Source: Colwellia polaris
GTDB taxonomy: Bacteria > Pseudomonadota > Gammaproteobacteria > Enterobacterales > Alteromonadaceae
Length of the DNA stretch: 64,000 bases
Direction: 5' to 3'
Assembly: GCF_002104515.1 (NCBI RefSeq)
Contig: NZ_NBOE01000006.1
Coordinates: forward strand, 124,001-188,000
Each line of letters begins with the position of its first letter. The first letter of the stretch is position 1. Positions 45,441 to 61,203 of this stretch are shown one piece after another. The notes beneath the pieces were generated by a model. That model had not been told where the DNA came from. It was given only the letters and a program-made list of their open reading frames with translations, and did no database searches. The position numbers and the translations under genes are program-made.

Positions 45441-47492
45441 ATGAAAAGTAATAATTTTGTACTTGGACAGCATCATGTTGATGTTGCTCGTAATCTAATA
45501 AAAATTAATGGTCAAATAAATCGGCTACCGCCCAAAGCAATTGCTTTATTATGCGTACTTGCCGAAAACCAAGGCGAAGTCTATAGTATTGAAGATATTA
45601 TGAAAATTGTTTGGGAAGATAGGATTGTTTCTTCCAATTCCTTGCAAAGCTGCATATCACAACTAAGAAAAGCTTTAAATGATGATGCGCAAACACAAAG
45701 GGTTATTAAAACCCATAGCAAAAAAGGTTATAGTCTAGAAATACCTGTTACTCACTTTGACTCCTCAAGTTCAAAAGCTAGCTACCTTAGACTCAACACA
45801 TTTTGGCGTATTTTATTTGTCACTTTAATTGTTGTGATTGCCTACTGGTTTCATCCTCTCTCAGAAAAAAATAAACAACATATTGAAGTTTCTCCTATAA
45901 CAAGTAGTGATGATTGGGAGTCTGGTGCTAGTTATGGGCCTGGAGGCAATTTTATTATTTTTCAACGGTATATAGACAATTGCTATAGTAATATTTGGTT
46001 AAAAGAGGTTTCGAGCCATAAAGAAAAACAACTTACGTATAATAAAGGTGTTTATGGCAAACCTAGTTGGTCCAATGATGGTAACCACATTACTTTTACA
46101 GAGCGCAATGCATGTAAACCAAGTCAAGTTGATGAAGAGTATTGTTGGTCTGTTAATACATTAAGCGTACTCGACGCAATAACGTCTCCTCAGAAGCCAG
46201 TAAGGAGGCTCGAATGTCAAAGCAACCCTGCTTGGCTCGCTAAGTGGTTGCCGACTGGGGATATCAGCTATTTAACTGAGAAAGACGGTAGTACAATGAT
46301 TCAGCTATATAGTCCTAAAACTCAGAAAGTTATAACTTTATTTGAGGTGCTTAGTAGTTACACATATAGTTATGATTTCTCAGTCGCAAATAGCACTTTT
46401 GCTCTTTTGAGTCTTAATGAAAAAAATGATCATGTATTTAGAGTGCTTAGCTTGACTGGCGAAGTGATATCCAAAGCTTTAATTAAGCTACCACTTAATT
46501 TTCCAAGAGATAGAGCGTTAAAAATTAAGTATCATCCTTCTGGGGAGTATGTAACTGTAAGCTCAGATAGCCGTATATACAGGCTGGATGTAGATGGAGA
46601 ATTATCAAAAATTGATATCGGAGGAAGACTAAATCTCACAGATTTTTCTTTCCACCCAAACGGCCAATTGCTTATCGCAACAGAGATCGTTGCTGACACT
46701 GATATTGTTTTGTTACCCAAAACACTTTTCAGAAAAAATATAGAAATATCATCTTTAGATGGGTACAAGTTGGCTAGATCTAACCTCAGTGAAGATATGC
46801 CCAAGTTTCAACCCTTGGGTGAACGAATCGCTTATACTTCAAATCGTTCAGGGATAAGACAACTTTGGCTTTTTAATAAAGAAAATGTGCAGTTAAGCCA
46901 AGGTGAATATGGGTTACAGAGTAAAACAATTGCTTGGTCACCTACCGGTACTATGATTGCTGGAATATCTGAAAATAAAGTTCAAATCTGGCAACTAGAC
47001 GGGCATTACCAGAAAATTGAAACAAAGCTCCATGTAGAGTCTGTTATGCAATGGTACTCGGTTAACGAGTTATTAGTTACAGCGATAATTGATGGGCATA
47101 GCACTTTACATAAACTCAATATTAAAACTAAAGCAATGAAAAATTTAGGAATAAAAAATATACTTTGGGCAAATTATGGCGACAATGGGCAACTTTTTTA
47201 CTTAAAACGTAACGGCAAGTTTTGGCGAAATGCAGTAAAACCTGTTGAAATGCCTAAATTAAACAATCAGTTTGAACAGCCTTTTGCTGTTTATAATTCT
47301 GGTGAGTTATATGGAATAAATAATGACCGACAACTTTGGGTCTATTCTATAGCTGATGATACCTTTGGAGTTTTATCTACGCTTCCTGAAAATGTACGCT
47401 ACTTATCTGATTTTAATGGAAGTGATTTCCTTATTACTCAAATGAAACAACTTAAAAAGGATCTGTTATTAATAAAACATAATGAGCAGTAA
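45441..47492 (+). CDS. CadC/ToxR-type membrane transcription regulator with TolB-like repeats
   Basis: The N-terminal residues 1-105 form an OmpR-type winged helix (LPPKAIALLCVLAENQGEVY, SLQSCISQLRKAL). One membrane helix follows (about 121-138), then a periplasmic part of about 540 residues with WD40/PD40-type repeats (YTSNRSGIRQLWLF, IAWSPTGTMIAGI). This is a one-component regulator that binds DNA in the cytoplasm and senses outside the membrane. No Shine-Dalgarno sequence is visible before the ATG. The divergent esterase is the likely target by position. Confidence 0.88.
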   Translation: MKSNNFVLGQHHVDVARNLIKINGQINRLPPKAIALLCVLAENQGEVYSIEDIMKIVWEDRIVSSNSLQSCISQLRKALNDDAQTQRVIKTHSKKGYSLEIPVTHFDSSSSKASYLRLNTFWRILFVTLIVVIAYWFHPLSEKNKQHIEVSPITSSDDWESGASYGPGGNFIIFQRYIDNCYSNIWLKEVSSHKEKQLTYNKGVYGKPSWSNDGNHITFTERNACKPSQVDEEYCWSVNTLSVLDAITSPQKPVRRLECQSNPAWLAKWLPTGDISYLTEKDGSTMIQLYSPKTQKVITLFEVLSSYTYSYDFSVANSTFALLSLNEKNDHVFRVLSLTGEVISKALIKLPLNFPRDRALKIKYHPSGEYVTVSSDSRIYRLDVDGELSKIDIGGRLNLTDFSFHPNGQLLIATEIVADTDIVLLPKTLFRKNIEISSLDGYKLARSNLSEDMPKFQPLGERIAYTSNRSGIRQLWLFNKENVQLSQGEYGLQSKTIAWSPTGTMIAGISENKVQIWQLDGHYQKIETKLHVESVMQWYSVNELLVTAIIDGHSTLHKLNIKTKAMKNLGIKNILWANYGDNGQLFYLKRNGKFWRNAVKPVEMPKLNNQFEQPFAVYNSGELYGINNDRQLWVYSIADDTFGVLSTLPENVRYLSDFNGSDFLITQMKQLKKDLLLIKHNEQ

Positions 47493-47706: not shown

Positions 47707-48993
47707 CTAATTTAGCATTGCTAATAACTCAGCCTGTTGTTTCTCACGAGAAACGTACTTAATCCATTGCTTAGCTGTTTTTTCGGAAGCTTTTATGCTT
47801 TCTGCTTGCTGAAAAGAAGTAAGTGACTGACTAAATAATTTTACGTTGAAATAGCTCATACCAAGAATTAGATGCATATCACCTTCACGACTAATTCCAC
47901 CTCTATCTAACGCTTTTTTAGCCGTTTCAATTGCCTTATCCCAGTTTTCTAAATTTAAGTAAGCTTGTGCAAGTTGTGCATCAAACTTGCCTGTGTCAGC
48001 AATTTCTGCTGCTTTAGCTAAAACAGGGATCGCCTTTTCATCATTTTTTGCCGCTACATACGATTGCGCTAGCATTTCTAAATGTTTTACAGTTGCTACT
48101 ACTTTACCGCTGGCAATGGATTCATCAAGTAGTTTAGCTGCTTTAAAAGGCGCACCATTAAATCGGTATAGTTGAACTAAAGTAATAATATCTTGATCTT
48201 TAGTTATATAACCTGCTTGCCAAGCAGTTTCCATTGCGCCCATTTGTTTTTTCTCTTGGCCAATTTCACCGTACATGCTCGCAAGCTGTATCCAGTACTC
48301 GGGTTTACTATAAAGTTTGACCATAAGCTCCATCACTTCCGTAACTTTCTCTGGTTGCTTCAACTCATAATAATTTGCTCGCTGCAAGATTAACCAATTT
48401 TCTTTAGCTTTTTGATTATTTGCATTGGCGACTTCAATCGCATTACCGATTGAAATAAGCGACTGAGTAAAGTTGTTATCTTGATAGTGCACTTGAGCAA
48501 ACAGCATATGTTGACTAGCTGTTAGGGCTTTAGTGTTAACCTCTTTCCAAAGGTTTAAATAATTAAGTGTTTCTTCATGTGCTTGTTGTTGCATTGATAG
48601 CTGAGCAAGTGAGTACAGAGTAGATAATCGCAGTGACTCTGGTATTGCATCTTGTGCAACTACATTTTTAAAACTCGCTTTGGCCTGCACTAAATCTTCA
48701 TTAGCATAATGCATAAAACCATAGAAATTCCAAAGCATGGATTTTTCATAACTATTTAAGCTTTCTAAACGATCTTTTACAGCATCAAGTACCGCAAGGC
48801 CTTCTGCTTTATCGCCGTTATCTGCAATTTGCTGAGCCCTGGCAAGCTGCGTGTAAACCCTGTTTCGCATCGCAGGAACGCGCACTGATTTTTTTGTTTC
48901 TTCTGCTTGCGCTTTAGCTAAGCCGCCAACTAAGACAGGTGAAGCATATAGCGTGCTTATTGATAAAATAGTACACAATATTTTTTTCATCAC
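47707..48993 (-). CDS. TPR protein of the TonB operon
   Basis: The 428-residue protein has a signal peptide (SISTLYASPVLVGGLAKA) and consists of TPR-type helix pairs throughout (EGDMHLILGMSYFNVKLFSQ near the end). It is the last gene of the DUF3450-ttpC-exbB-exbD-tonB run and begins 12 bases after tonB. Proteins of this kind in Vibrio and Shewanella TonB2 loci are periplasmic; a scaffold role for receptor-TonB contacts is plausible but is inference. Confidence 0.85.
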   Translation of the reverse strand: MMKKILCTILSISTLYASPVLVGGLAKAQAEETKKSVRVPAMRNRVYTQLARAQQIADNGDKAEGLAVLDAVKDRLESLNSYEKSMLWNFYGFMHYANEDLVQAKASFKNVVAQDAIPESLRLSTLYSLAQLSMQQQAHEETLNYLNLWKEVNTKALTASQHMLFAQVHYQDNNFTQSLISIGNAIEVANANNQKAKENWLILQRANYYELKQPEKVTEVMELMVKLYSKPEYWIQLASMYGEIGQEKKQMGAMETAWQAGYITKDQDIITLVQLYRFNGAPFKAAKLLDESIASGKVVATVKHLEMLAQSYVAAKNDEKAIPVLAKAAEIADTGKFDAQLAQAYLNLENWDKAIETAKKALDRGGISREGDMHLILGMSYFNVKLFSQSLTSFQQAESIKASEKTAKQWIKYVSREKQQAELLAMLN

Positions 48994-49005
48994 TTACTCT
49001 CTTTT

Positions 49006-49626
49006 TTAACCGTCAATTTCAAATGAAATTTTGTTTTGAACACCGGCTACTTCTGTAGCTACGCCATCGACTACTCGCGGTTTATATTTAAACTTTAATG
49101 CGGCATCCATTGCAGCTCTATCAAAAATCCCTTCAGGTTGGGACTCTATAACTAAGGGATTTCGTACAGAGCCATTTTTTGTCACTGTAAATTCAACAAT
49201 AACGTAGCCTTCAATACCTCTTGATTGTGCACGCCGAGGATAAATTGGCGCCACTTTTACAATCGGAAGATAATCACCGTCTGCACTTTCTAGATTTAGC
49301 CCACCAGACAACCCTGAATCAGTTTGAACATCAGCGGTAAAACTTGTACTTACCGCATTAGTGTTAGGGTTAGCTTGTTGCATTTGTGGCTGTTGCATTT
49401 GAGGTGGAGGCTCTTTAGGCGTAGGCGGCTTTTGCGGCTTTCGTTCTTTTTTCTGCACTGTTTCATCTTGTTTTAAGCGAATAAAATCAAGTACATTACC
49501 TCGAGGCGGCTCGGACAATACGTCGTTACCACCAGCGATCAGGCGCTGCATACTCCACAAAAGAGCTATGGTTACCATTACAGCTAATACTAAAGATATT
49601 GCGTAACGTACTAGGTTCGTCCCCAT
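49006..49626 (-). CDS. tonB: Energy transducer TonB
   Basis: The 206-residue protein has an N-terminal membrane anchor (residues about 8-30), a short Pro/Gln-rich spacer (PPTPKEPPPQMQQPQMQQ) and a C-terminal TonB domain (YPRRAQSRGIEGYVIVEFTV and AMDAALKFKYKPRVVDG). The short spacer and the neighbouring TtpC-like gene are typical of TonB2-type systems. TonB carries proton-motive energy from ExbBD to outer-membrane receptors. exbD ends two bases upstream of its start. Confidence 0.95.
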   Translation of the reverse strand: MGTNLVRYAISLVLAVMVTIALLWSMQRLIAGGNDVLSEPPRGNVLDFIRLKQDETVQKKERKPQKPPTPKEPPPQMQQPQMQQANPNTNAVSTSFTADVQTDSGLSGGLNLESADGDYLPIVKVAPIYPRRAQSRGIEGYVIVEFTVTKNGSVRNPLVIESQPEGIFDRAAMDAALKFKYKPRVVDGVATEVAGVQNKISFEIDG

Positions 49627-49628
49627 AA

Positions 49629-50042
49629 CTAACTCTCTTGCGTCGCAATTGAGACATCAAATACGCCAGCAGCACGAGCAGAATCCATAACCTTGATTAA
49701 TAAGTCGGTCGTGGCTTTTTTATCTGCTTGGATAACCACTGTACCCTGTGGATTTTCAGCTTTTAAGCGTTCGATATTTGCTTGCACTGCACGAACATCA
49801 ATGCGACGTTTGTTAATCCAGATATCGCCTTTATCACTGATAGCTACTAGGATATTCGCTCGTTCTTTTTTAACGGCTGTAGCAGCTTCCGGACGATTAA
49901 CTTCAATACCTGCTTCTTTAACAAACGAGGCTGTAACAATAAAAAATATCAATAGAATAAATACAACATCGAGCATTGGCGTCATATTAATTTCTTCCGC
50001 TTCTTCTTGCTCTTGTAAAACTTTTGCTAATTGAGAGCGCAT
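49629..50042 (-). CDS. exbD: Biopolymer transport protein ExbD
   Basis: The 137-residue protein has one membrane helix carrying the essential Asp in INMTPMLDVVFILLIFFIV (Asp25), then a periplasmic domain. Together with ExbB it forms the proton-driven motor for TonB. It lies between exbB (21 bases upstream) and tonB (2 bases downstream). Confidence 0.95.
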   Translation of the reverse strand: MRSQLAKVLQEQEEAEEINMTPMLDVVFILLIFFIVTASFVKEAGIEVNRPEAATAVKKERANILVAISDKGDIWINKRRIDVRAVQANIERLKAENPQGTVVIQADKKATTDLLIKVMDSARAAGVFDVSIATQES

Positions 50043-50063
50043 GTTCTAAACCCTTTTAATTCG

Positions 50064-50591
50064 TTAGTGCGCCATTGGCAGCGCATCTTCAATCTGTTCT
50101 GTGCGACGTTTAGTTTTTCGTTGCAACCAAGTGACAATAAATACTCCTGAAAGTGAGCCAACCATGCCTGCCATTGTAGGAATAGTTGCCCTAGATACAC
50201 CCGATGCCATTGATCGTGCGTTACCACTGCCTGAAATGGCCATTACATCAAACACTTCTATCATCCCTGTCACTGTCCCAAGTAACCCCATTAAAGGGCA
50301 TAACACAACTAAACTTTGGATAAGCGCTACATTATGATTTAGTAATGCTGTAACACGCGATACGTTAGCTATTCTTATATGTTCAGCATTCCAAGATTTT
50401 CTTTCACCTCGTTGTAGCCACTGTTCGACAATTTGCTTTTTCACTTTTTTATAACCATAAAGAAAAAAGTACAAACGTTCAAAAATCAGTAGCCACATCA
50501 GGCAGATAACACCGGCGATTGCCGTTAACACCTGACCGCCAGTATCTAAAAATTCACGAATGCTATTCATCAACTCGATGAATAAGATCAT
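50064..50591 (-). CDS. exbB: ExbB-type MotA/TolQ/ExbB proton channel
   Basis: The 175-residue protein has three membrane helices (about 16-36, 88-108, 132-155), with the channel signature LCPLMGLLGTVTGMIEVFD and the conserved GVSRATIPTMAGMVGS segment. It is short compared with E. coli ExbB, as usual for the ExbB2 that accompanies TtpC. The gap after the ttpC-like gene is three bases. Confidence 0.93.
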   Translation of the reverse strand: MILFIELMNSIREFLDTGGQVLTAIAGVICLMWLLIFERLYFFLYGYKKVKKQIVEQWLQRGERKSWNAEHIRIANVSRVTALLNHNVALIQSLVVLCPLMGLLGTVTGMIEVFDVMAISGSGNARSMASGVSRATIPTMAGMVGSLSGVFIVTWLQRKTKRRTEQIEDALPMAH

Positions 50592-50594
50592 GGT

Positions 50595-51971
50595 TTACGC
50601 TCCCTTTAACTTAAGCACTTCATTTTCTGCACGCTCAGCAATAATGCCTGCACTTTGTTGTTGCAAGGTAGTGATAATGCCGCGGCTTAGCGTGTTAAGT
50701 AGGGTTGAAATAAAGACCATTGGAATCGCTACTACCAGGCCAAGTACAGTTGTAACTAACGCTTGAGATATTCCACCTGCCATCAGTTTTGGGTCACCAG
50801 TACCAAATAAAGTGATGGCTTGGAAGGTATTAATCATACCGGTAACCGTTCCGAGTAAACCGATAAGCGGTGCGACAACTGAAATGATTTTAATTAACGT
50901 TAAACGATTGGTTAACTTAGGCACTTCAGCAAGAATTCGCTCTGATAGTTTCAACTCTAATGTTTCAGTGTCTGCATTTTTATTTTGGTCTTTAACTAAC
51001 ATCACACGACCCAATGGATTATCGTTAGATGCCACATCAGTTTTAACTTGACGTTTCACTTTGCTACTCACTAAAAATAGAGAAATAAAGCGTTCTAGTG
51101 CAATTAATAATCCGATTGCACCTAAAGCAAGTATTACATAACCTACTGGGCCACCTTGGTCTACACGTTCTTGCGTATCTGGTGCCTGCACTAATAGCCC
51201 TAGAATAGAACCACTAGTTGGGTCAAGAGCAAAAGCAGTTTGCTGTCCGTTACTTTCTGATAAATCAGCAGCAGTATTTAAATAGCGACCTGTAGGTTGG
51301 CGAATAAGCTCAGCAACCGAGCCTGTTTCATCAATATATTCTAAGTATTTCCCTTGCGATACTAAGTTAAAGCCACCAACACGAACAACTTCTTGATCAC
51401 TTTTTGAGCCGTCTGCTGCAACAACTTCTCGTGTAAACGTGTGAACTTTACCGGATTCAGTCATTTCGCGTTGTAACTCAAACCAAAGTCGCTCTATTTC
51501 TTCAATAGAAGCAAGCTTTGACGATGACCCCATGCTTTGAGCAAATTCATCTAAGAATACCCCACGACCAGGTATTTGTGCCGAAACTACAGAGGTTTGA
51601 AATTTACTGCGTAAATCTCCAGATACCTGCTGTAAAACACCAAATAATTCTTTTAACTCGCCCATTCGCTTATTTAAAGCGTCAGTACGGTTACCAATTT
51701 TAATTTCATTATTTTGAAATGTAGCTTCAAGCTCGGTACTCAAGTTAACGGCGTTATCACGTGTATTCCTTGCGCTTGCAAGCATTTGATCTTGTTCTGC
51801 TTTGCGAGCATCAAACTCAGCTTCACGTTGCTGATTCTCTTTGCTTTGTGCTATTTGTCCTTTCTCTAATTGAGAAAGTAACTGATCTAAATTCGTAGCA
51901 TCTTGTGCCAAAGTTAGGTTTGCAACTGAGCCTAGCACTAACGCTGACAATACTTTTGTTACTAATTTCAT
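50595..51971 (-). CDS. TtpC-like large MotA/TolQ/ExbB family protein
   Basis: The 458-residue protein has a signal peptide (VLSALVLGSVANLTLA), a coiled-coil periplasmic region (about 25-130), a mixed region to about 260, and three membrane helices with the proton channel block VVAPLIGLLGTVTGMINTFQ. This is the TtpC layout, the extra subunit of TonB2 systems in Vibrio and related bacteria. A frame upstream to 52019 would overlap the DUF3450 gene, so the ATG at 51971 is preferred; it lies 13 bases after the DUF3450 stop. Confidence 0.9.
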   Translation of the reverse strand: MKLVTKVLSALVLGSVANLTLAQDATNLDQLLSQLEKGQIAQSKENQQREAEFDARKAEQDQMLASARNTRDNAVNLSTELEATFQNNEIKIGNRTDALNKRMGELKELFGVLQQVSGDLRSKFQTSVVSAQIPGRGVFLDEFAQSMGSSSKLASIEEIERLWFELQREMTESGKVHTFTREVVAADGSKSDQEVVRVGGFNLVSQGKYLEYIDETGSVAELIRQPTGRYLNTAADLSESNGQQTAFALDPTSGSILGLLVQAPDTQERVDQGGPVGYVILALGAIGLLIALERFISLFLVSSKVKRQVKTDVASNDNPLGRVMLVKDQNKNADTETLELKLSERILAEVPKLTNRLTLIKIISVVAPLIGLLGTVTGMINTFQAITLFGTGDPKLMAGGISQALVTTVLGLVVAIPMVFISTLLNTLSRGIITTLQQQSAGIIAERAENEVLKLKGA

Positions 51972-51984
51972 TTTATGGTCTACC

Positions 51985-52761
51985 TTATTCAGCCGAATTT
52001 TGTGCGACTGGCACAACAATTAAATCTGGTGCTAATTGCTTACGGGCAATTCGCAGAGCTTTGTTTAGGTCTGTACGATACTCAGCACCAAGTGGCTTCC
52101 AACTTTGGCTACCTTCATCCCAAACCCCCATACTTTGTCCGTCACGAGTGCGATAAACAAAACTCACGCGACCTATACGCAGAAAGTCTACGTCTCGCTC
52201 TTGACCATTAACGTTTTGTAAACCTGTATAAGCTTCAATAGTGCGGCCGTACTCAACTTCTACTTGATAGGCTTCAAGTACTTGACGAAATTTCTCTGCA
52301 ACAGAGACATCTGCACGGTCTATTGCCGTTCGTAAGTTGGTTATACGTTGAGAGCGTTCTTCCGGTAAGAACGGCACATCCAACTCAACAAACTTTGCTA
52401 AAGTGTCTATCATACGTGCCATTAAAGGAGAAACTTGACGTTCGATAACACTCACTTGTTCCATCGAGTTAGCAAGCTGAGACAGCTCATTTAATTGGTT
52501 ATCTATTTGTGTTTGCATTTGACCGTTATAAACATTTAAACCGTCAATTTCTTTATTTACGTTTTTGAATTGTTGCAGTTTGCTTAGGATTTGCTCACTA
52601 ATACGATCCACACGCTGTTGCGATTGATTTGCAGATTGCGTGATTTTCTTGCCAGCATCAACGACCTCATTTAAGTCAGTCTCTTGCGCTGAAAAGCCAT
52701 AAAATGACAAGGTAGCAGAACTTAAGAAAACACCTGCTTGTGCCAGTTTGGACAATTTCAT
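51985..52761 (-). CDS. DUF3450 protein, first gene of the TonB operon
   Basis: The 258-residue protein has a signal peptide (ATLSFYGFSA), a coiled coil (about 30-110, ITQSANQSQQRVDRISEQIL) and a compact C-terminal region (FLRIGRVSFVYRTRDGQSMG). DUF3450 proteins regularly precede ttpC-exbB-exbD-tonB genes in marine gammaproteobacteria; their role is not settled. AAAGG precedes the ATG. About 145-172 bases upstream are three PhoB-like half-sites. Confidence 0.88.
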   Translation of the reverse strand: MKLSKLAQAGVFLSSATLSFYGFSAQETDLNEVVDAGKKITQSANQSQQRVDRISEQILSKLQQFKNVNKEIDGLNVYNGQMQTQIDNQLNELSQLANSMEQVSVIERQVSPLMARMIDTLAKFVELDVPFLPEERSQRITNLRTAIDRADVSVAEKFRQVLEAYQVEVEYGRTIEAYTGLQNVNGQERDVDFLRIGRVSFVYRTRDGQSMGVWDEGSQSWKPLGAEYRTDLNKALRIARKQLAPDLIVVPVAQNSAE

Positions 52762-52904
52762 AGTTAAACCTTTATTATGATTAAAGCTGCAATGTTGCAG
52801 TTAGCCCAAAAGCATTGCTTTGTTTTGAGCTTGATAAACGACTATGAAGAATTCTAAAGGTGAATTATGACGGCAAAGTTTCAGTAATATTGCAACTTTA
52901 TTAA

Positions 52905-52933
52905 ATGACAAAAAAGTTACAAAAATCTTACAA
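52905..52933 (-). promoter_or_regulatory. Three tandem PhoB-like half-sites
   Basis: On the minus strand TTGTAAG, TTGTAAC and TTGTCAT follow each other with starts exactly 11 bp apart, the spacing of PhoB half-sites (CTGTCAT units). The match to the 7-bp consensus is partial in the first two. The region is AT-rich, so chance is possible. Confidence 0.5.
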
Positions 52934-53047
52934 TTACAAAGAAATTAAATAACAAAAAGCGAATTGAAAATCGCTAAAACTAAGCATAAATTGTCTATAT
53001 TACGGTTTAATGTCAAACAGATGTAAACGATTAACTAATGGGAATAA

Positions 53048-53080
53048 AAAACCTCTTACCTAAACAGGGTAAGAGGTTTT
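53048..53080 (-). terminator. Strong terminator after the TonB-dependent receptor
   Basis: A 13-bp perfect stem (AAAACCTCTTACC / GGTAAGAGGTTTT) with a 7-base loop is followed on the minus strand by a T-run, about 65 bases past the receptor stop. Confidence 0.9.
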
Positions 53081-53144
53081 GTGTTTTACGTGCAGGAATA
53101 CTTAGCTAAGTATTCTTAGGGGTTAATGACTAAATAAGACCAGC

Positions 53145-55817
53145 TTAATCAAATTCCCATTTAAATTGAATGTCGAACCCTATGCCACGTGTTTCGCTGC
53201 GAAGTAGTGTGTCGTCAAATTCAATCTCTTTTTCTTCATCTAGAATGTTTTGTACTTTAAACTTCAACGTTGTCGCAAACGTTGGGTAATAAGTATAAAT
53301 TAAGTCTAAAGAATGAACCGGTTGCTCGTATGCGTCGTCTTTATTATCAATGCCAGGAATGATGATACGTTCGCCAAATACATTGTATGCTAATGTTGCT
53401 GTGTGATTTCCATTTGGGTGGTCATAACCTAGGTTCATGTTAACAACATATTCAGAGTGGCCTGTCATACGACGAGTTGGGTTAGTAATAGCTGTTGAAA
53501 CACCTGTTTGCTCAACCACTTTTTGCGTATCGATGTTAATTTCTGAATCTGAAAGCGTTACGTTACCTGATAAGAAGAAGTCATTTCCCATTCCACCTAA
53601 GAAAGCGAAATCTTTCATAAACTCAACTTCAACACCGTATACTTCACCATCATCAGCATTTGCAATTCGAATTAGCGGCGGACCATCTTGAGAGGGGGAT
53701 TGCACTGATTCAATAGGGTCTTCCATATCTTTGTAGAATAAACCTACCGATAAGTTTTCACCTGTTTCCAAATACCATTCCCAACGCAAATCATAATTTT
53801 TAATTTGCGTACTACGCACAGCAGGTGTACCACCAATAGGGAATTCAGTTAATGGGTCAATATAAGTTGCAGGCGCTACTTCACGTAGGTCTGGACGAAT
53901 AGTTGTTTCACCGTAAGAAGCCCTAAACTGCATCGTTTCATCTAAAATATAGGTAAGTGCTAAAGCGCCGTAGTAGTCATCTTCTTTAAAAGTTAACTCA
54001 GCCAAGTCTTCTTTCGTTGGCTCTGCAGGAATATCAAACTGTCCTGTTGCGGGATCTAATGGAGCCACAACTTGACGGAAGTCTTCCCAACGAACTCCAC
54101 CACTAATACGCCAGGTATTATCTAAAAAGACATCTACTTCGAAATAATAAGCATCAACTTTTTGTGCCGATAAGTAATCATCGCCCGCAATAGAGGTATC
54201 GCGTATTAAACGTTCACTACCCGTTAATGGATGGTTTAATACCTTGTCATCATTAAGGATTTCATTCATCTCGTAGCCAGATAAATCTAAATTATCGAAA
54301 GCTAACGTGTTAACGTCGATACGGCGCGCAAATGCTTCACGTGTTTTCTCGATATATTTAGCACCCGCTTTTAATTCAACTTCAGTTGTATCGAACATCA
54401 GCGGTAACGAAAGATTCCAACCAGCATCTTCTACATCATCATCCAAATTTTGGAAAGTATAACGAGATGCTGTTGTTGCTTTTCGCAGAGAGCTTTCGTT
54501 TGCTAAATCAAATACACCATCTTCATTCTCATCTGCTAATATATAGCGAGTAGAAATATTTCCTGGTGCATAACGATTTGAGCGCGAGTCTGAATATAAC
54601 CAATCAAACCCAATAAACCAGTACTTTGAAAAAGTATGGCTACCACGTAGCTGATTAACGATTAATTCACGCTCTTCATAGGCAACATCAACATCACGTA
54701 CACGTAAACCATCAGACAACAATACGTTGTTAGTGTTACCGTACTTCTCTTTGATTTGATCGCGAGTATCATGAAGAATCGTCGAACTAAAGTCGATCTT
54801 ATGATCGCGCAGATATTCAACACCAAAGTTAAACATGCCAGACCATCTAACGGAATGCTCTGTAGAAATTACATCATCAAAGCCTCGAATAAGCTTATAT
54901 GACTCATCAGCTTGTAACGCAAAATCTTGACCTTCGAACTCTTCAGAAACCTGCCATTCATTATCATAAGATAATGCGGTTAAGAAACCGTAGCGGAAAT
55001 CACCTGAGTCAGAGTCAAAACGATTACCAATAGTCATATCTAGACCAAAATCTGGTATTGGATCTTCAGACTGAGGATCGTAATCTTTATATAAATCTGC
55101 TGCAATTACTCGGTTTTCTTCTTGAGATAAATCACCTAATGCATCGTAATTTTTCCACAAAGTGCGAAGTGCTTTTGGAGCTTGTCGTGTACCGTCATCA
55201 AGACCATACCAATCATCACCGCCACCTTCATACGTTAAGCCGTTATTACTATTCTCCGAACTACCGCCAACATTGCCAGCAATATTAAATACAAACGTTG
55301 AGGGAATAGACTTTAAACGGATATCAACATTACCACCACCGAAGTGAGCAGGCATTGATGGTGAATATGACTTTTGAACCGATAATGATTCAATAATCGA
55401 TGATGGAAATAAATCGAGTGGGATAACGGTACGTGTTGGATCTGGAGAAGGTACAGCGGCACCATTTAATTGCGTACTTGAATAACGTTCACCTAAACCA
55501 CGTACGTAAATAAATTTACCGTCGACCAGTGTCAAACCTGTCACACGACGAAGTGCTGCAGCTGCGTCACTATCACCGGTACGCGCAATTTGTTCAGCAC
55601 CTAATATGTCAGCAACGAACGCTTGGTTTTTACGCTCTTCAATAACGGCATTTGCGGTACCTTTTAAGCGACTAACTTTAACAACAACTTCTTCAATTGC
55701 TTCGTCGCTTTCTTGTGTTGGGCTAACTTCTTGTGCAGTCGCCTGAATACCTATTAAGCCTGACAAAACAGCCACAGCTAAACTTGATAAACCAAAGCGC
55801 TTAATATTCGTGTTCAT
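53145..55817 (-). CDS. TonB-dependent outer-membrane receptor
   Basis: The 890-residue protein starts at 55817, where AGAGG stands upstream; a longer frame to 55859 lacks a signal-like start. The signal peptide is SSLAVAVLSGLIGIQATA. The plug domain follows (RKNQAFVADILGAEQIARTG, FIYVRGLGERYSSTQLNGA). A beta-barrel of the 22-strand type ends FDIQFKWEFD. The ligand cannot be read from sequence. It follows the repeat lipoprotein gene by 207 bases on the same strand, and a terminator separates it from the TonB energising operon. Confidence 0.95.
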   Translation of the reverse strand: MNTNIKRFGLSSLAVAVLSGLIGIQATAQEVSPTQESDEAIEEVVVKVSRLKGTANAVIEERKNQAFVADILGAEQIARTGDSDAAAALRRVTGLTLVDGKFIYVRGLGERYSSTQLNGAAVPSPDPTRTVIPLDLFPSSIIESLSVQKSYSPSMPAHFGGGNVDIRLKSIPSTFVFNIAGNVGGSSENSNNGLTYEGGGDDWYGLDDGTRQAPKALRTLWKNYDALGDLSQEENRVIAADLYKDYDPQSEDPIPDFGLDMTIGNRFDSDSGDFRYGFLTALSYDNEWQVSEEFEGQDFALQADESYKLIRGFDDVISTEHSVRWSGMFNFGVEYLRDHKIDFSSTILHDTRDQIKEKYGNTNNVLLSDGLRVRDVDVAYEERELIVNQLRGSHTFSKYWFIGFDWLYSDSRSNRYAPGNISTRYILADENEDGVFDLANESSLRKATTASRYTFQNLDDDVEDAGWNLSLPLMFDTTEVELKAGAKYIEKTREAFARRIDVNTLAFDNLDLSGYEMNEILNDDKVLNHPLTGSERLIRDTSIAGDDYLSAQKVDAYYFEVDVFLDNTWRISGGVRWEDFRQVVAPLDPATGQFDIPAEPTKEDLAELTFKEDDYYGALALTYILDETMQFRASYGETTIRPDLREVAPATYIDPLTEFPIGGTPAVRSTQIKNYDLRWEWYLETGENLSVGLFYKDMEDPIESVQSPSQDGPPLIRIANADDGEVYGVEVEFMKDFAFLGGMGNDFFLSGNVTLSDSEINIDTQKVVEQTGVSTAITNPTRRMTGHSEYVVNMNLGYDHPNGNHTATLAYNVFGERIIIPGIDNKDDAYEQPVHSLDLIYTYYPTFATTLKFKVQNILDEEKEIEFDDTLLRSETRGIGFDIQFKWEFD

Positions 55818-55937
55818 TTCAAACCTCTTTAGAATGGCTAGCTCGAAATAAATTTGCAAGCTAGTTGTAGAGCTTAGGGTTAAAACCTAAAGGAAGTTAT
55901 TAGTGTCGGTTGCAGAGAACTCATGTGAGAGCAAAGA

Positions 55938-55986
55938 AGAGGCGCTTTAACTTATAAATAACTTACAAGTGTAAATAAGCACCTCT
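55938..55986 (-). promoter_or_regulatory. Hairpin in the lipoprotein-receptor intergenic region
   Basis: The outer arms AGAGGCGCTT / AAGCACCTCT pair fully only as minus-strand RNA, through a G-U wobble. An inner stem (ACTTGTA / TATAAGT) also pairs with one wobble. There is no T-run. It could be a processing or attenuation point between the two genes. Confidence 0.5.
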
Positions 55987-56024
55987 AATAAAGCTATCGC
56001 AAGAATTCGCAATAACCTAGCTAA

Positions 56025-58760
56025 TTACTCTAGACCTACTGTCCACCCTGCAGTCCAATCATTGCTTTCTGATACCGCACCGATGTGGTCAGCGTTATCG
56101 AAGAATGCATGTGAACCGAAGCTGTAAGGCACTGTAGCATCGATTGTGTAGATACCGTTGATAACATCTGCAATACCAGCTTCTGTGCTGTTGTCAGCGT
56201 TGATGTTGATAACCCAATCCATGAGGTCAAATGCACCTGTTGAGCTGTCTTGGCTCTTAAAGTTTTCGTTACATGCAAATACTGAGTTAGTAATGACTGT
56301 TTCGTTCGCAATAGCTTGGTCAACGGTCACACCAGTCTCTAACTCTAAACACTCACCAGCAGCATTAGTTACTACGAAGTTATGTAATTGAGCACGAGTA
56401 CCTTCACGTAAGTAGATACCTTCAGAGTCTTTATCGGCAGTATCGAATGAGTTACCAATAATTGTCATGTTAGCAATCGTAGGGTTTGATTGAGGATCTT
56501 TGCTTGGATTTGAACCGTCATTATCCGCTTCAATTGCACGATTAGACTCGCCGCCATTTTCGTCATGCTTAACTAAAACGTATTGCATGTTACCGCGGAA
56601 GCCGTTATCCCAATCAACTGAGTCATCTTTGTTAGATGTTAAAACAACATACTTAGCGTTAACCGCACCACCGAAGAATTCAACACCATCATCCGCATTT
56701 TCATGAACTTGGATAAACTCAACGGTTGTTGCTGAACCAACACCACCAAACGTAATACCGTTTAATTCGTTATCCGGTGCAACTTCAAAACCAGCATGTT
56801 TAACAACTACATAGCGTAATGTACCTGAGTCATCTTCCCAGTTATCACCACCGAATGTTGCACCTTCTTCAACACCTTCAACTTGTAATGAACAAGAAGG
56901 GTCAATAGCACCACCAGCTAATGTAGGACACTTATTAGAAGGAGCGTTACCTAGAAGTACCATACCACCCCATTGGCCAGAGCCAGTTTCTTCACCATTA
57001 ATATCTTGGCTAGAAGTGAAAGTGATTGGTGCTTGAGCTGAGCCTAGTGCTTCAATTTTCGAATCGCGGCTAACGACTAAGTAATCGCCACCTGAACGAC
57101 CAAAAACAGTTGTTCCTGCTTCGATTGTTAACGTAGCTGAGTCAGCACGGTTGTTACCAACGAATACTGGGCCGTCTAATGCGTATAAGTTATTAGACGT
57201 TAAAGTTAAATCTGAAGTGATAGTACCTGAGATCTCACAAGTAGTTTGACCATTTACTGGTGCAATTGCAGAAGTCCCGGTAGGACAACCTTCTTCTTCT
57301 GGCGGCTCTGTAATTACACCACCACCGAAACCAAATGCCCAACCTTCACGCCAGTCAGTTGCACCATCAAAAGCCCCTTGGTAGTCAGTTACATCGAACC
57401 AAGTATCAACAGCTGATGTATCTTGACCTGTACCTAATAATGGCGATTGTGAGCTTGGCACACCGTCTTCATCGATAAGAATTGAAGTGCTAACCATGTT
57501 AGTTGCTTCACCGGTAAACCATGCCTCTAAATCGAAGTCACCAGCGTTTTTGAAGTTTTCGCCATTGTTACAAGCGATCGTGCTGTTTTGAATAACAATG
57601 TTACCTGACTCAGCATTTGTTACTGTTTGACCAGCTTCAAACTCTAAACACTCGCCCATTTCAGCAGGACCTGTAATTACTGTGTTGTAGATGCTCGCTG
57701 AGGTACCTTCACGTAAGTAGATACCTTCTGAGTCTTTATCAGCAGTGTCGAAATTGTTACCCATAATTGTCATGTTCGACAGAGTAGGGTTAGACATTGG
57801 CTCTTTATCTGGTGTTGAACCGTCGTTATCAGCTTCGATAGCTCGATTTGCTTCACCAGCATTTGCAGCATGTTGTACGAAGATATGCTGTAAACGACCT
57901 TTAAAGCCATTATCCCAGTCAATGCTGTCATCCTTGTTACCCGTCAACACTAAGTGCTTAGCATCTACGGCACCACCAAAGAATTCTACACCGTCATCAG
58001 CATTGGCGTGAACTTGTAAGTAATCAACAGTTGTACCTGAACCAACGCCACCGAAAGTAACACCGTTTAATTCATTGTCTGGTGCAATTTCATAACCTGC
58101 GAACTTAACAACTACGTACTTAAGTACACCTGAATTATCTTCCCAGTTGTTACCGCCAAAGACAGCACCTTCACCCACACCTTCTATTTGAAGTGCACAC
58201 TCACTGCCGTCTGATGGACACTTATTAGAAGGAGCATTACCTAAAATTACAATACCACCCCATTGGCCAGCAGAAACTTCTTCACCTTTAACATCTTGTA
58301 ATGATGTGAAGATAATTGGCTCTGATTTAGTGCCTTCTGCCATGATCTTAGCATCACGATGAACAACTAAGTAATCGTTACCAGATTGACCAAATAACAC
58401 TGCATCTTTATCAATAGTTAACGTAGCACCACCCATAATTTCTAAGCCACCGCTAATGGCATAAAACACAGGTTTAGAACCATCACTGCTTGCTAAAGTA
58501 GTGTCTTCAGTAACTTGTCCGTCAACTACTTGAACTTGTACATCAAAACCTACTGCTGCGCTTACTTCAGCAGATAAAGATGAAGAAGGGATACCCGGTA
58601 ACTCTACACCTAGATCTGGATTTACTGGTGCAGGGTTATTAATAACAGTATCGCCAACTGAATTATCTACGTCTGATGATAGTTCAATGTCACCACCACA
58701 ACCGGCTAATACTAAAGCTGCTGAAATAGCACTTATTCTAAAAAATTTTGTCATTTGCAT
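56025..58760 (-). CDS. Outer-membrane-type lipoprotein with two tandem beta-helix-like halves
   Basis: The leader ends with the lipobox LVLAGC (Cys21). The 911-residue protein then contains two homologous halves of about 400 residues (roughly 80-480 and 510-911). Shared blocks include GQWGG-(I/M)V-(I/L)LGNAPSNKCP, DNELNG-(V/I)TFGGVGS, ADDGVEFFGGAV, NKDDS-(I/V)DWDNGF and DTADKDSEGIYLREGT. The repeating short strands suggest a right-handed beta-helix, and the many Asp/Asn turns could bind Ca2+. The function is unknown. A near-consensus PHO box and a second partial one lie upstream, and the receptor gene follows, so it is probably a phosphate-regulated surface partner of that receptor. Confidence 0.8.
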   Translation of the reverse strand: MQMTKFFRISAISAALVLAGCGGDIELSSDVDNSVGDTVINNPAPVNPDLGVELPGIPSSSLSAEVSAAVGFDVQVQVVDGQVTEDTTLASSDGSKPVFYAISGGLEIMGGATLTIDKDAVLFGQSGNDYLVVHRDAKIMAEGTKSEPIIFTSLQDVKGEEVSAGQWGGIVILGNAPSNKCPSDGSECALQIEGVGEGAVFGGNNWEDNSGVLKYVVVKFAGYEIAPDNELNGVTFGGVGSGTTVDYLQVHANADDGVEFFGGAVDAKHLVLTGNKDDSIDWDNGFKGRLQHIFVQHAANAGEANRAIEADNDGSTPDKEPMSNPTLSNMTIMGNNFDTADKDSEGIYLREGTSASIYNTVITGPAEMGECLEFEAGQTVTNAESGNIVIQNSTIACNNGENFKNAGDFDLEAWFTGEATNMVSTSILIDEDGVPSSQSPLLGTGQDTSAVDTWFDVTDYQGAFDGATDWREGWAFGFGGGVITEPPEEEGCPTGTSAIAPVNGQTTCEISGTITSDLTLTSNNLYALDGPVFVGNNRADSATLTIEAGTTVFGRSGGDYLVVSRDSKIEALGSAQAPITFTSSQDINGEETGSGQWGGMVLLGNAPSNKCPTLAGGAIDPSCSLQVEGVEEGATFGGDNWEDDSGTLRYVVVKHAGFEVAPDNELNGITFGGVGSATTVEFIQVHENADDGVEFFGGAVNAKYVVLTSNKDDSVDWDNGFRGNMQYVLVKHDENGGESNRAIEADNDGSNPSKDPQSNPTIANMTIIGNSFDTADKDSEGIYLREGTRAQLHNFVVTNAAGECLELETGVTVDQAIANETVITNSVFACNENFKSQDSSTGAFDLMDWVININADNSTEAGIADVINGIYTIDATVPYSFGSHAFFDNADHIGAVSESNDWTAGWTVGLE

Positions 58761-58824
58761 CTTAGTTACCCACTCCGCAGAGTTTATTGTTTTAATAAAA
58801 TTGCGGTCATGCTACGTCGCAAAA

Positions 58825-58842
58825 ATGACAGAAATATTTTAG
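58825..58842 (-). promoter_or_regulatory. Partial PHO box, proximal
   Basis: CTAAAATATTTCTGTCAT on the minus strand has a perfect downstream half-site (CTGTCAT) and a weak upstream one, 11 bp apart. A TAGCAT stands about 10 bases downstream, where a -10 would be expected. It ends 65 bases before the lipoprotein start. Confidence 0.6.
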
Positions 58843-58868
58843 AAATATGTAGTTTTTGTTTAGGAAAA

Positions 58869-58886
58869 GTGACAGTTAGATGACAG
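58869..58886 (-). promoter_or_regulatory. PHO box (PhoB binding site), distal
   Basis: CTGTCATCTAACTGTCAC on the minus strand carries two CTGTCAY half-sites 11 bp apart, almost the consensus PHO box. It lies exactly 44 bp (four 11-bp units) upstream of the proximal site. Confidence 0.8.
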
Positions 58887-59317: not shown

Positions 59318-59734
59318 TCACTCATTCAAGTTAGCTTTAAGCGTTTGGGATAATTGAATAAAGTCAGCAACTTCTTCAGCTGAAACATTGTTGACCATTT
59401 TATCGAATAGCTGTTTCTCAGCTGTTTTAAATAACGTGATTATTTCAATGCCCTTAACCGATAAGGTTAATAAATGACTACGTTTGTCTTTTTCATTATC
59501 TGTTTTGATAATGAGCTCTTGGCTTAGTAGCTCTTTAATTAATCTATTAATTTGGGCTTTATCTCGGCCCATAAAGTCAGCTAACTTTTGCCCTGTGCAT
59601 TCATCTATGTGTGATATTACTTTTAAAGACTTTAAGTGCATTGGAGATAAATCTATGTTTAATAGTTTTATTTCTTGCTTCATGTTGTTACGTACTGCGT
59701 GCACTAAATTAAAAAGAGCTTCACTTAATTCCAT
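59318..59734 (-). CDS. MarR family transcriptional regulator
   Basis: The 138-residue protein has the winged-helix MarR fold (MHLKSLKVISHIDECTGQKLADFMGRDKAQINRLIKELL for helices 2-4, then the wing with DNEKDKRSHLLTLS). The start at 59734 has GGAA 8 bases upstream; a longer frame to 59788 lacks a good site. It is divergent from the DUF2798 gene, and an inverted repeat between them is a likely operator. The effector is unknown. Confidence 0.9.
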   Translation of the reverse strand: MELSEALFNLVHAVRNNMKQEIKLLNIDLSPMHLKSLKVISHIDECTGQKLADFMGRDKAQINRLIKELLSQELIIKTDNEKDKRSHLLTLSVKGIEIITLFKTAEKQLFDKMVNNVSAEEVADFIQLSQTLKANLNE

Positions 59735-59790
59735 CGTTATTTCCGCATAAATTAATGATATAAAAATATAGTTGACAATATCAACCAATA

Positions 59791-59823
59791 TACAATATAG
59801 TAGACCTTATTAACTATATTGTA
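59791..59823. promoter_or_regulatory. Inverted repeat, likely MarR operator
   Basis: TACAATATAGT (59791-59801) and ACTATATTGTA (59813-59823) are perfect inverse copies with an 11-base spacer. A TTGACA at 59773-59778 with TATAGT 18 bases later gives a plus-strand promoter that the left arm overlaps. Confidence 0.65.
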
Positions 59824-59835
59824 TTGAGAGTTGTT

Positions 59836-60279
59836 ATGCCACTTAAATTTAAAAGAGTAACTATTATGTTTTTGGTGATGCTGTTCATGGTCGCTAGTAT
59901 TACGGCGATTATGACCATTGCAAATCTTGAGGGCTCACAGGGTTTTCTTAATGTTTGGTTAAATGCTTTTCTGTTTACCTTTTTAGTATTAATTCCTACC
60001 GGAGGCTGTGTTTTTATCATATTAAGTAAGCTGATAAATCATTACTGCTCAGCATGGTCTGTTTTGCAAAAAAACTTATTACAAGGTTTGTTAATGGCTG
60101 TCGCTATGGAGTCGATTATGGCAGCAGTTCTGACCATAAAAAGTGGTGTTTATGAATCAATAACACACTTTTTTGCATTATTTTTTAATAGTTTACTTTA
60201 TGCATTACCCGTAGGGATTACGTTGTCGCTTATTATGACGTTAGTGATAAAGCCAAAGCTTGATGAAGGTGTTGTTTAG
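59836..60279 (+). CDS. DUF2798 membrane protein
   Basis: The 147-residue protein has four membrane segments arranged as two related halves (about 7-27 and 38-60; 82-104 and 112-136). Each half resembles the short DUF2798 unit, whose signature includes NVWLNAFLFTFLVLIPTG. The function is unknown. The ATG at 59836 has GAGAG upstream; the frame opens at a TTG four codons earlier. It is divergent from marR and probably controlled by it. Confidence 0.8.
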   Translation: MPLKFKRVTIMFLVMLFMVASITAIMTIANLEGSQGFLNVWLNAFLFTFLVLIPTGGCVFIILSKLINHYCSAWSVLQKNLLQGLLMAVAMESIMAAVLTIKSGVYESITHFFALFFNSLLYALPVGITLSLIMTLVIKPKLDEGVV

Positions 60280-60285
60280 CATGTT

Positions 60286-60445
60286 ATACCAATTGATATA
60301 AACAATCGATCATTCTAAAGCGGTTTAAATATCCAGTATCTACGTTGCTTTCAATCCCAATAGCCTGCTATTGCTCAATCAAGCGCCTTGCTGCTGAAAA
60401 TTTATCCTCGTTTAAAATTGATCGATTCATTAAATCAATTGGTAT
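60286..60445. mobile_element. MITE-like element, about 160 bp, between the DUF2798 and SIP-type genes
   Basis: The ends are inverted copies of 27 bases with three mismatches (ATACCAATTGAT at the left, ATCAATTGGTAT at the right). TTA occurs directly at both ends (60284-60286 and 60445-60447) and could be a 3-base target duplication. No ORF is inside. It splits what may have been a DUF2798-SIP transcript. Confidence 0.7.
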
Positions 60446-60477
60446 TATTTAATTTAGATAAAAAATAGGAGAATATT

Positions 60478-61203
60478 ATGGGACCCACTATGCGAATGAC
60501 ACAGGTTTTATCTATTAATGATTTATCGCCACACATGAGAAGAATTACCTTAACGGGAGATTCACTTGCTGACTTCCCAGAGGGTAAAGAAAGCGCCCAT
60601 GTAAAAGCCATTTTTCCTGCGCCTAGTTCAAGTAATAAAAAGCCTAAACTAGGCGTATATTTGGGCTTTAAGAATTTCATGCGCTCTTATACCATTAGAT
60701 CGTTTGATAAAGAAAATTTAGCGTTAACGATTGATTTTGCTGTAAACGATCACCAAGGTTTAGCGACTAATTGGGCACTTGCAGCGAAAACAGGTGATTA
60801 TCTTGGTATAGCTGGGCCAGGCGATGCAAAACATGCCGATTTAAACGCACCAAATCACTTGTTTTTTGGTGATATAACCGCATTGCCCGCCATTGCTGCA
60901 ACATTGGAGAAACTGCCAGAGAATACAGCGGGACATGCTTATATTCAAATACCTAACGAGCAAGATAAACAAGTGATAGCAGCGCCAAAAGGAGTAAAGC
61001 TACACTGGCTTGTAACAGCAAATAAATTCACAGAAGATTTCCTTATAGGACTTAAGTCACTAGGCAATGATATCAGTGATACCGCGATATTTATTGCTGC
61101 AGAGGCTAGCGTTGTTAAGCAATTAAAGTCGCATTTAAACACCAGCTGTGAATATGATAAAACTAAACTTTATGCCAGCGCATATTGGAATCAGAAAAGG
61201 TAA
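60478..61203 (+). CDS. Siderophore-interacting-protein (SIP) family flavoprotein
   Basis: The 241-residue protein matches the SIP/ViuB family of FAD-dependent reductases. It has HMRRITLTGDSLADFP and YTIRSFDKENLALTIDFAVN (FAD-binding), then GPGDAKHADLNAPNHLFFGDITALPAIAATLE for the nucleotide-binding half and a C-terminal SAYWNQ motif. Such enzymes release iron from ferric siderophores in the cytoplasm. AGGAG lies six bases before the ATG. No Fur box was identified. A MITE-like element ends about 30 bases upstream. Confidence 0.9.
   Translation: MGPTMRMTQVLSINDLSPHMRRITLTGDSLADFPEGKESAHVKAIFPAPSSSNKKPKLGVYLGFKNFMRSYTIRSFDKENLALTIDFAVNDHQGLATNWALAAKTGDYLGIAGPGDAKHADLNAPNHLFFGDITALPAIAATLEKLPENTAGHAYIQIPNEQDKQVIAAPKGVKLHWLVTANKFTEDFLIGLKSLGNDISDTAIFIAAEASVVKQLKSHLNTSCEYDKTKLYASAYWNQKR

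Follow-up and report, generated by a model that had tools for sequence, protein, structure and literature searches.

An ElpS-like lipoprotein and its TonB-dependent receptor linked to a PHO-box-bearing Ttp energiser clade in Colwellia polaris

Phosphate limits growth in parts of the ocean, and to our knowledge the passage of large phosphorus compounds across the outer membrane of marine bacteria is poorly known. Could an eight-gene set of Colwellia polaris serve such a passage? The set lies on contig NZ_NBOE01000006.1 of assembly GCF_002104515.1, within a stretch of 64,000 nucleotides (positions 124,001 to 188,000) that we call the window, and a first-pass annotation had proposed it to be a self-contained module that takes up a phosphorus compound during phosphate starvation. 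In this study we describe, at the level of sequence, a gene content that joins a lipoprotein and a TonB-dependent receptor (TBDR) to a TonB motor of the Ttp kind, two promoters with PHO boxes, an almost perfect pairing of lipoprotein and receptor, and a separate clade of energisers that is linked to the pair. We consider it probable that the whole, under the control of PhoB, imports a phosphorus-rich macromolecule or pieces of it.

Two likely transcripts and their PHO boxes

The eight genes, recognised by open reading frame inspection and a Pfam scan, lie on the minus strand from 58886 down to 47707. In the order of transcription, the features are as follows:

58869-58886, minus strand: PHO box of the lipoprotein-receptor transcript, CTGTCATCTAACTGTCAC, 108 bp before the start codon
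56025-58760, minus strand: ElpS-like lipoprotein of 911 amino acids with two predicted beta-helix modules; LAGC lipobox, Cys21
57306-58490, minus strand: lipoprotein module 1, approximately residues 91-485, modelled as a beta-helix
56028-57305, minus strand: lipoprotein module 2, residues 486-911, modelled alone
53145-55817, minus strand: TBDR of 890 amino acids with Pfam Plug and beta-barrel domains
53048-53080, no strand assigned: terminator-like hairpin of 14 pairs between the two gene groups, from a hairpin scan
52905-52922, minus strand: PHO box of the energiser operon, TTGTAACTTTTTTGTCAT, with neighbouring sites at 52867-52950 and 52999-53016
51985-52761, minus strand: TtpB (DUF3450), PF11932 at E 7.5e-86; putative role after PMC6957404
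50595-51971, minus strand: TtpC-like protein of the MotA/TolQ/ExbB family with a long N-terminal extension, PF01618 at residues 320-438, assigned also by tree
50064-50591, minus strand: ExbB, PF01618
49629-50042, minus strand: ExbD, PF02472
49006-49626, minus strand: TonB, PF03544
47707-48990, minus strand: TtpD, a TPR protein (TPR Pfam families) and last gene of the operon, in position and kind like TtpD2 of PMC6957404

The last six genes are 2-21 bp apart, and 207 bp lie between the lipoprotein and TBDR genes. Because a 383-bp gap and a long hairpin separate the TBDR gene from the DUF3450 gene, the module is likely to consist of two transcripts, one for the lipoprotein and TBDR and one for the six-gene energiser operon. 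The hairpin, listed on the plus strand only, is by far the longest among 10 terminator-like sites, a number at the level of shuffled sequence (9.4). In the whole genome (28 contigs, 4.43 Mb) our search found one lipoprotein of the ElpS-like family, and a second Ttp operon is present at another site (L003).

The first-pass annotation had placed PHO boxes before both transcripts, and this is confirmed together with its list of eight genes. When all window positions on both strands were ranked with a matrix of 69 sites from relatives, our own genome excluded, the three best sites fell in these two promoters: the lipoprotein promoter box came first (24.0 bits), the 52905-52922 box second (14.8 bits) and another site within the DUF3450 promoter third (12.4 bits). 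The box at 58869-58886 is the sole exact match to CTGTCATNNNNCTGTCAY in the genome. By plain consensus the 52905-52922 box is weak (10 of 14 positions, the chance level), and its recognition rests on the matrix and on the relatives; several sites around it are spaced by 11 bp.

Promoters were surveyed in our own locus, four plasmid loci and 64 loci of the order, scoring for each region its top site on either strand if this reached 11/14, with dinucleotide shuffles for comparison. A PHO box was found in 51 of 69 lipoprotein promoters (2.9 expected) and in 22 of 29 DUF3450 (TtpB) promoters (0.9 expected), and the region upstream of the TBDR, which served as an internal control, had one in 2 of 68 cases (3.0 expected). 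On the coding strand alone, in our own locus and the 64-locus set, the counts were 46/64 lipoprotein, 20/27 TtpB and 1/64 receptor regions, one of the 65 lipoprotein rows having been dropped for its short upstream region. Related promoters are not independent, and the safer figure is the number of genera with at least one lipoprotein PHO box on the coding strand, 22 of 27. The survey includes one locus with a broken open frame and a misplaced lipoprotein start (L101), which was kept and scored as a miss, and our own locus (L004), in which the sequence ahead of the lipoprotein runs to only about 240 bases; L079, whose TtpB promoter was unreadable, is not counted in the 29. Start codons are the farthest in-frame ones, and promoter distances are approximate. 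A reversed-sequence control at the same threshold (18/65 lipoprotein, 1/64 receptor and 1/27 TtpB regions) was rejected as invalid because ACTGTCA reads identically backwards, and the reversed control built into the genome-wide box searches (38 vs 46 matches; 6 vs 12) has the same flaw. The controls that we relied on instead were dinucleotide shuffles, receptor upstream regions and paralogous operons.

Elsewhere in the C. polaris genome, correctly oriented boxes precede phoB (by 51 bp), a pstS-family gene (75 bp) and the initial open frame of a pstC-pstA-pstB cluster (59 bp), with gene identities taken from NCBIfam. Three further PHO-box-like sites were noted: one 69 bp before the gene of a choice-of-anchor I domain protein and in the right orientation (L297, G000:C24:53379), one near another TBDR gene with a Plug domain (L299, C25:86622) and one near a membrane protein gene, by eye like a seven-transmembrane sensor (L009, C22:236087), the last two oriented opposite to their genes. 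At the promoter level, the boxes that would mark members of a PhoB regulon are present at both transcripts, and in the relatives, where the first-pass annotation had asked for them as a check, they were found in most lineages and enriched at both promoters. The sequence evidence thus bears out the proposed phosphate control, and we infer that PhoB would govern both transcripts.

The pair and its energiser clade

The co-occurrence of lipoprotein and receptor had been set beforehand as a check on the proposal, and it proved almost perfect. Among 394 genomes of the order (cut-offs E 1e-3 for the lipoprotein and E 1e-30 for the receptor), the lipoprotein was found in 66 and the receptor in 65, all of the latter among the former; 65 genomes have both, none the receptor alone, and one (G322, a weak match) the lipoprotein alone. 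Because the genome searches score few best candidates per genome, here two for the pair and four for the energiser clade, absences are less sure than presences. Loci were fetched for 64 of the 65 pair genomes, G322 being left aside, and in 63 of them the lipoprotein adjoins the receptor and comes first, the remaining locus ending at a contig edge. A wider scan over Alpha- and Gammaproteobacteria, Bacteroidota and others, of which the best 80 of 545 confirmed candidates were considered, gave the order lipoprotein-receptor in 60 and receptor-lipoprotein in 8, with 8 ending at a contig edge and 4 not adjacent. The two locus sets overlap in at least eight contigs (L155/L090, L171/L094, L176/L100, L178/L080, L184/L125, L186/L121, L192/L113 and L194/L101). 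By gene order and occurrence, lipoprotein and receptor behave as one unit, and the two proteins may be in direct contact.

The energiser operon belongs to a clade of its own. In a TtpC tree of 36 rows, for which usable TtpC came from 25 of 30 linked loci and 11 of 21 loci taken as paralogues, a branch supported at 100/99 separates 27 rows, the 25 pair-linked operons and two unlinked PHO-box operons (G272, G172), from nine paralogues of lipoprotein-bearing genomes. Four loci (L065, L074, L132, L134) that a distance rule had called unlinked were relabelled as linked, gene maps showing them in the cluster, and L258 sits on a very long branch. Away from the pair, 2 of 21 TtpB promoters had a PHO box, and both belong to the clade members G272 and G172. 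A search of 27 chosen genomes, 25 with the lipoprotein and two without, gave ten clade operons that the assemblies place apart from the lipoprotein (535-695 bits; L272 and L274 are the earlier two exceptions again), nine of which have a PHO box on the coding strand; the tenth (L265 in G234) and the lipoprotein of that genome are both close to a contig end and may be linked in truth. Among 20 fetched Ttp operons of the general clade (389 bits or less), one had a box on the coding strand and four on either strand.

At a cut-off of E 1e-130 (511 bits or more), the energiser clade was found in 39 of the 394 order genomes, and all 39 carry the pair. A second draw of 196 genomes of the family, which overlaps the 394 and in which up to four lipoprotein and eight clade candidates were scored per genome, had the lipoprotein in 162 and the clade in 147; tallied by hand from the two lists, 146 genomes have both, 16 the lipoprotein alone, one the energiser alone and 33 neither. 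In these genomes there is, then, a separate Ttp-type energiser clade, carrying PHO boxes even when unlinked and nearly confined to genomes that bear the lipoprotein, and the pair is spread more widely, the clade occupying part of its range. The term self-contained gains support insofar as a distinct PHO-box energiser clade accompanies the pair over part of its range. In a MAG (metagenome-assembled genome) of Deltaproteobacteria and in Pseudobacteriovorax (L202, 9-18 kb; L205, 9-19 kb), a single-module lipoprotein is followed by TtpC-like protein, ExbD, TonB and TBDR, a different gene order that may mean the same machine was put together there independently.

The surroundings of the pair vary. 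A phoB gene (at least 55% identity to our own PhoB, within the fetched stretch) lies beside the lipoprotein in 15 of 64 order loci, in 7 of the best 80 of 545 wide-scan loci and in one of four plasmid loci, mostly with phoR and pstS; in C. polaris itself, phoB-phoR-pstS is on the same contig approximately 118 kb from the module. On the Alteromonas macleodii plasmid pBGP9, the order is phoB, phoR, phosphate-binding protein, 2OG-Fe(II) oxygenase, lipoprotein, receptor and Ttp operon, a stretch that could be a phosphate-scavenging island. This 239-kb plasmid (L067, NZ_OX359244.1, 528-23879) was typed as non-mobilizable, and a Tn3-like transposase gene is nearby. In G234, a member of another genus, lipoprotein and receptor show 91% and 90% identity to their C. 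polaris counterparts, and of seven congeners listed, four have a distant lipoprotein form only and three no match. The nearest TtpC (83-84%) is that of the genus g16, whose lipoprotein and receptor are 31% and 40% identical to ours (L128). Because the pair resembles one other genus and TtpC another, lipoprotein and receptor seem to travel together and independently of the motor, as judged from identities rather than from a tree; G234, G321 and G397 were the genomes compared with our own for this exchange.

Around the module, a regulator that combines a CadC/HilA-like DNA-binding domain with TolB/WD40-like propeller repeats (45441-47492) is convergent with the operon end, and a MarR-type regulator and a protein resembling siderophore-interacting proteins, judged by eye, are encoded just upstream (59318-61203). 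A Pseudoalteromonas locus (L065, 25756-26793) likewise has a MarR gene, together with a protein annotated as siderophore-interacting, approximately 8 kb downstream of the receptor.

Predicted fold of the lipoprotein

The lipoprotein matched no Pfam (E 0.001) or NCBIfam family, and its lipobox with Cys21 was recognised by reading the N-terminus rather than with a signal-peptide program. Its two modules of approximately 400 residues are 56% identical to each other over 392 alignment positions. Relatives of approximately 550, 930 and 1365 amino acids occupy the same slot, and we read these as forms with one, two and three modules. Module 2 modelled alone with AlphaFold2 (predicted local distance difference test, pLDDT, 94.4; predicted template modelling score, pTM, 0.94) is predicted to be a right-handed beta-helix, and the model of the whole lipoprotein (pLDDT 89.5, pTM 0.59) leaves the relative arrangement of the modules unsure. 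The nearest solved structures in Foldseek were PL6 lyases, chondroitinase B and tailspikes, generic right-handed beta-helices with low query template modelling (TM) scores (0.09-0.19 in one search and 0.18-0.36 in another, 50 rows each), and for this generic likeness we refrain from naming the lipoprotein a lyase. No sequence relative of the lipoprotein, the receptor or TtpB was found among solved structures, where only chance-level rows appeared, and no catalytic family was matched by the lipoprotein sequence in Pfam, NCBIfam or the solved-structure sequence search.

Across 48 family members, no variation is seen at H251, D255, D256, E259, D277, D278, D281 and E309 of module 1, nor at D690, D691, E694, D712, D713, D716 and E744 of module 2. 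The invariant acidic pairs are 22 residues apart, approximately one coil, and in the model the stacked acidic residues may form an acidic, possibly metal-binding face. By analogy with ElpS of Caulobacter crescentus, the lipoprotein would be located at the cell surface.

Possible function and known relatives

The two halves of the system have both been described before. It has been reported that ElpS (CC0170) of C. crescentus is a surface lipoprotein made in phosphate starvation, that its gene precedes those of the TBDR CC0171 and of a type II secretion system (T2SS), and that there is conservation in Shewanella and Bacteroides; a functional link between ElpS and the receptor was suggested (PMC2996285). 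The T2SS and various TBDRs are also listed in the Caulobacter PhoB regulon (PMC11208175). In Flavobacterium, the low-phosphate lipoproteins FI, FII and FIII are related to ElpS; FI, the most abundant exoprotein under phosphate depletion (18.7%), and FII, found in the phoBR cluster, are the F. johnsoniae PUSIII/PUSIV lipoproteins, with a reported 31-36% identity to the Caulobacter protein, and are clustered with TonB-dependent transporters induced by phosphate depletion (PMC8115612). The first-pass annotation took the joint role of the DUF3450 protein, the TPR protein and the lipoprotein within a single machine to be undescribed, as far as it knew. This is not supported: lipoprotein and receptor had been published as a phosphate-starvation pair (PMC2996285, PMC8115612), and the DUF3450 and TPR proteins correspond to TtpB and TtpD, both essential for TonB2 of Vibrio vulnificus, an iron-regulated system (TtpB-TtpC-ExbB-ExbD-TonB-TtpD) that serves siderophore receptors (PMC6957404).

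The present locus shares with ElpS-CC0171 a lipobox lipoprotein with the receptor gene directly downstream, and alphaproteobacterial members of the family have the Caulobacter order of lipoprotein, receptor and T2SS (for example, L135-L138 and L140-L144). The C. polaris lipoprotein is 33% identical in the best piece to that of L066, a locus with this published order. ElpS, of approximately 50 kDa, corresponds to one module, whereas the C. polaris protein has 911 amino acids and two, size not being kept across the family, and in place of the T2SS there is a Ttp-type energiser with its own PHO box. The F. johnsoniae loci belong to another phylum, and a dedicated TonB energiser is not mentioned in the portions of that account that we consulted (PMC8115612). 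With V. vulnificus TonB2 the energiser has the same six parts in the same order, DUF3450 first, TPR last and TtpC between, yet it differs in its PHO boxes and its linkage to an ElpS-type pair, and Fur control of the Vibrio sort was not found (PMC6957404); iron control is a property of the Vibrio case and not of the Ttp machine. Surface lipoprotein partners of TonB-dependent transporters are known from SusCD/PusCD (PMC8115612) and BtuB-BtuG (PMC10404256), although the lipoprotein here has neither SusD nor any other Pfam match (E 0.001) and is a predicted beta-helix. We found neither the combination of the pair with a PHO-box Ttp energiser clade, nor a phosphate-linked Ttp system, nor a later ElpS study in the open-access literature of PubMed Central beyond the papers cited. 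Pair and motor are each already known; it is for the two joined under PHO boxes, and for a motor clade set apart from others, that this open-access search showed no earlier account.

We therefore propose, as the probable function of this locus, the import of a phosphorus-rich macromolecule or its fragments; transport would be inward and the putative ligand would contain phosphorus. At low phosphate, phosphorylated PhoB would turn on the two transcripts. From the first would come an ElpS-type lipoprotein, tethered to the external side of the outer membrane, together with the TBDR that partners it, and from the second a Ttp-kind motor (TtpB, TtpC, ExbB, ExbD, TonB and TtpD) from the pair-associated clade. 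The beta-helix modules with their stacked invariant acidic residues might bind the macromolecule, perhaps via a metal such as calcium, or cut it, and the lipoprotein would then deliver the intact molecule or pieces of it to the receptor, whose opening the motor would drive.

Several observations weigh against this proposal. The lipoprotein PHO box is present in 0/4 promoters of lineage f20, 0/1 of f15 and 5/9 of f7, and a Fur-like site of 15/19 stands upstream of the C. polaris lipoprotein. The energiser clade is not obligatory, for 26 of the 65 pair genomes gave no member of it, among them every pair genome of lineages f6, f15, f16 and f20, and the genome of the 196 with the energiser alone (G455) gave no lipoprotein match. 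In Caulobacter, cc0171 was reported to be expressed in rich and poor medium (their data not shown), phosphatase activity stayed the same when elpS was deleted, and internal phosphate showed no detected change after a shift to poor medium (PMC2996285).

Three other explanations have to be considered. The lipoprotein might bind or cleave a polysaccharide under phosphate stress for a receptor that imports sugars, the link to phosphorus being merely regulatory. Such glycan scavenging would suit the predicted right-handed beta-helix, whose top matches, to PL6 lyases and chondroitinase B, are weak, the Pfam Beta_helix matches seen in nine of the 53 aligned members (at E values no higher than 1, the best being 2.6e-05; none for our own module) and the polygalacturonase-like homology models of the Flavobacterium relatives (PMC8115612), but the TM-scores are low, no catalytic family was matched by sequence and the ten scanned proteins, which leave out the other flanking genes, include no carbohydrate enzyme; we regard it as improbable. 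Somewhat less probable still is the role proposed for ElpS, in which a released lipoprotein activates an extracellular phosphatase and the receptor aids display, release or signalling rather than import. ElpS overexpression raised phosphatase activity, ElpS itself having none in the tests made (PMC2996285), 17 of the 60 lipoprotein-receptor loci among the best 80 of 545 have a GspD-like gene close to the pair, and T2SS genes follow the pair in L066; the linked TonB energiser with PHO boxes points instead to energised transport, and five tested T2SS proteins had no relative in the 64-kb window (E 1e-4), the rest of the genome not having been searched for them.

It could also be that the Ttp operon energises the uptake of siderophores or haem, as Vibrio TonB2 does, and that phosphate control is a side effect. 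The six-gene operon is the same as that of the iron-regulated TonB2 (PMC6957404), 5 of 69 lipoprotein promoters carry Fur-like sites of at least 14/19, where two-base block shuffles would give 1.2, the above-mentioned 15/19 site among our own upstream sequence adds to this, and the receptor has a weak haem/transferrin-receptor match of 33 bits, far under the cut-off of 323.75. However, a Fur-like site of this quality is found in 0 of 29 TtpB promoters (own best 11/19), where 22 of 29 have a PHO box, and no siderophore-receptor model of NCBIfam reaches its cut-off for the receptor; we regard iron uptake as very unlikely to be the task of this locus.

Returning to the proposed phosphorus importer, a phosphate-starvation pair with a private power supply suggests a dedicated scavenging route for a phosphorus-containing compound, and the linked energiser clade with its PHO boxes makes the import hypothesis directly testable. 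A bolder form of it is possible, though we hold it to be rather doubtful: that this is the first TonB energiser clade dedicated to phosphorus, part of an uptake machine wired as a whole to PhoB, in which a beta-helix lipoprotein of variable repeat number takes hold of a phosphorus-rich polymer, trims it and passes it on to its receptor. If this were true, phosphorus would enter these bacteria as a macromolecule, such as a teichoic-acid-like or nucleic-acid polymer, rather than being stripped outside by phosphatases.

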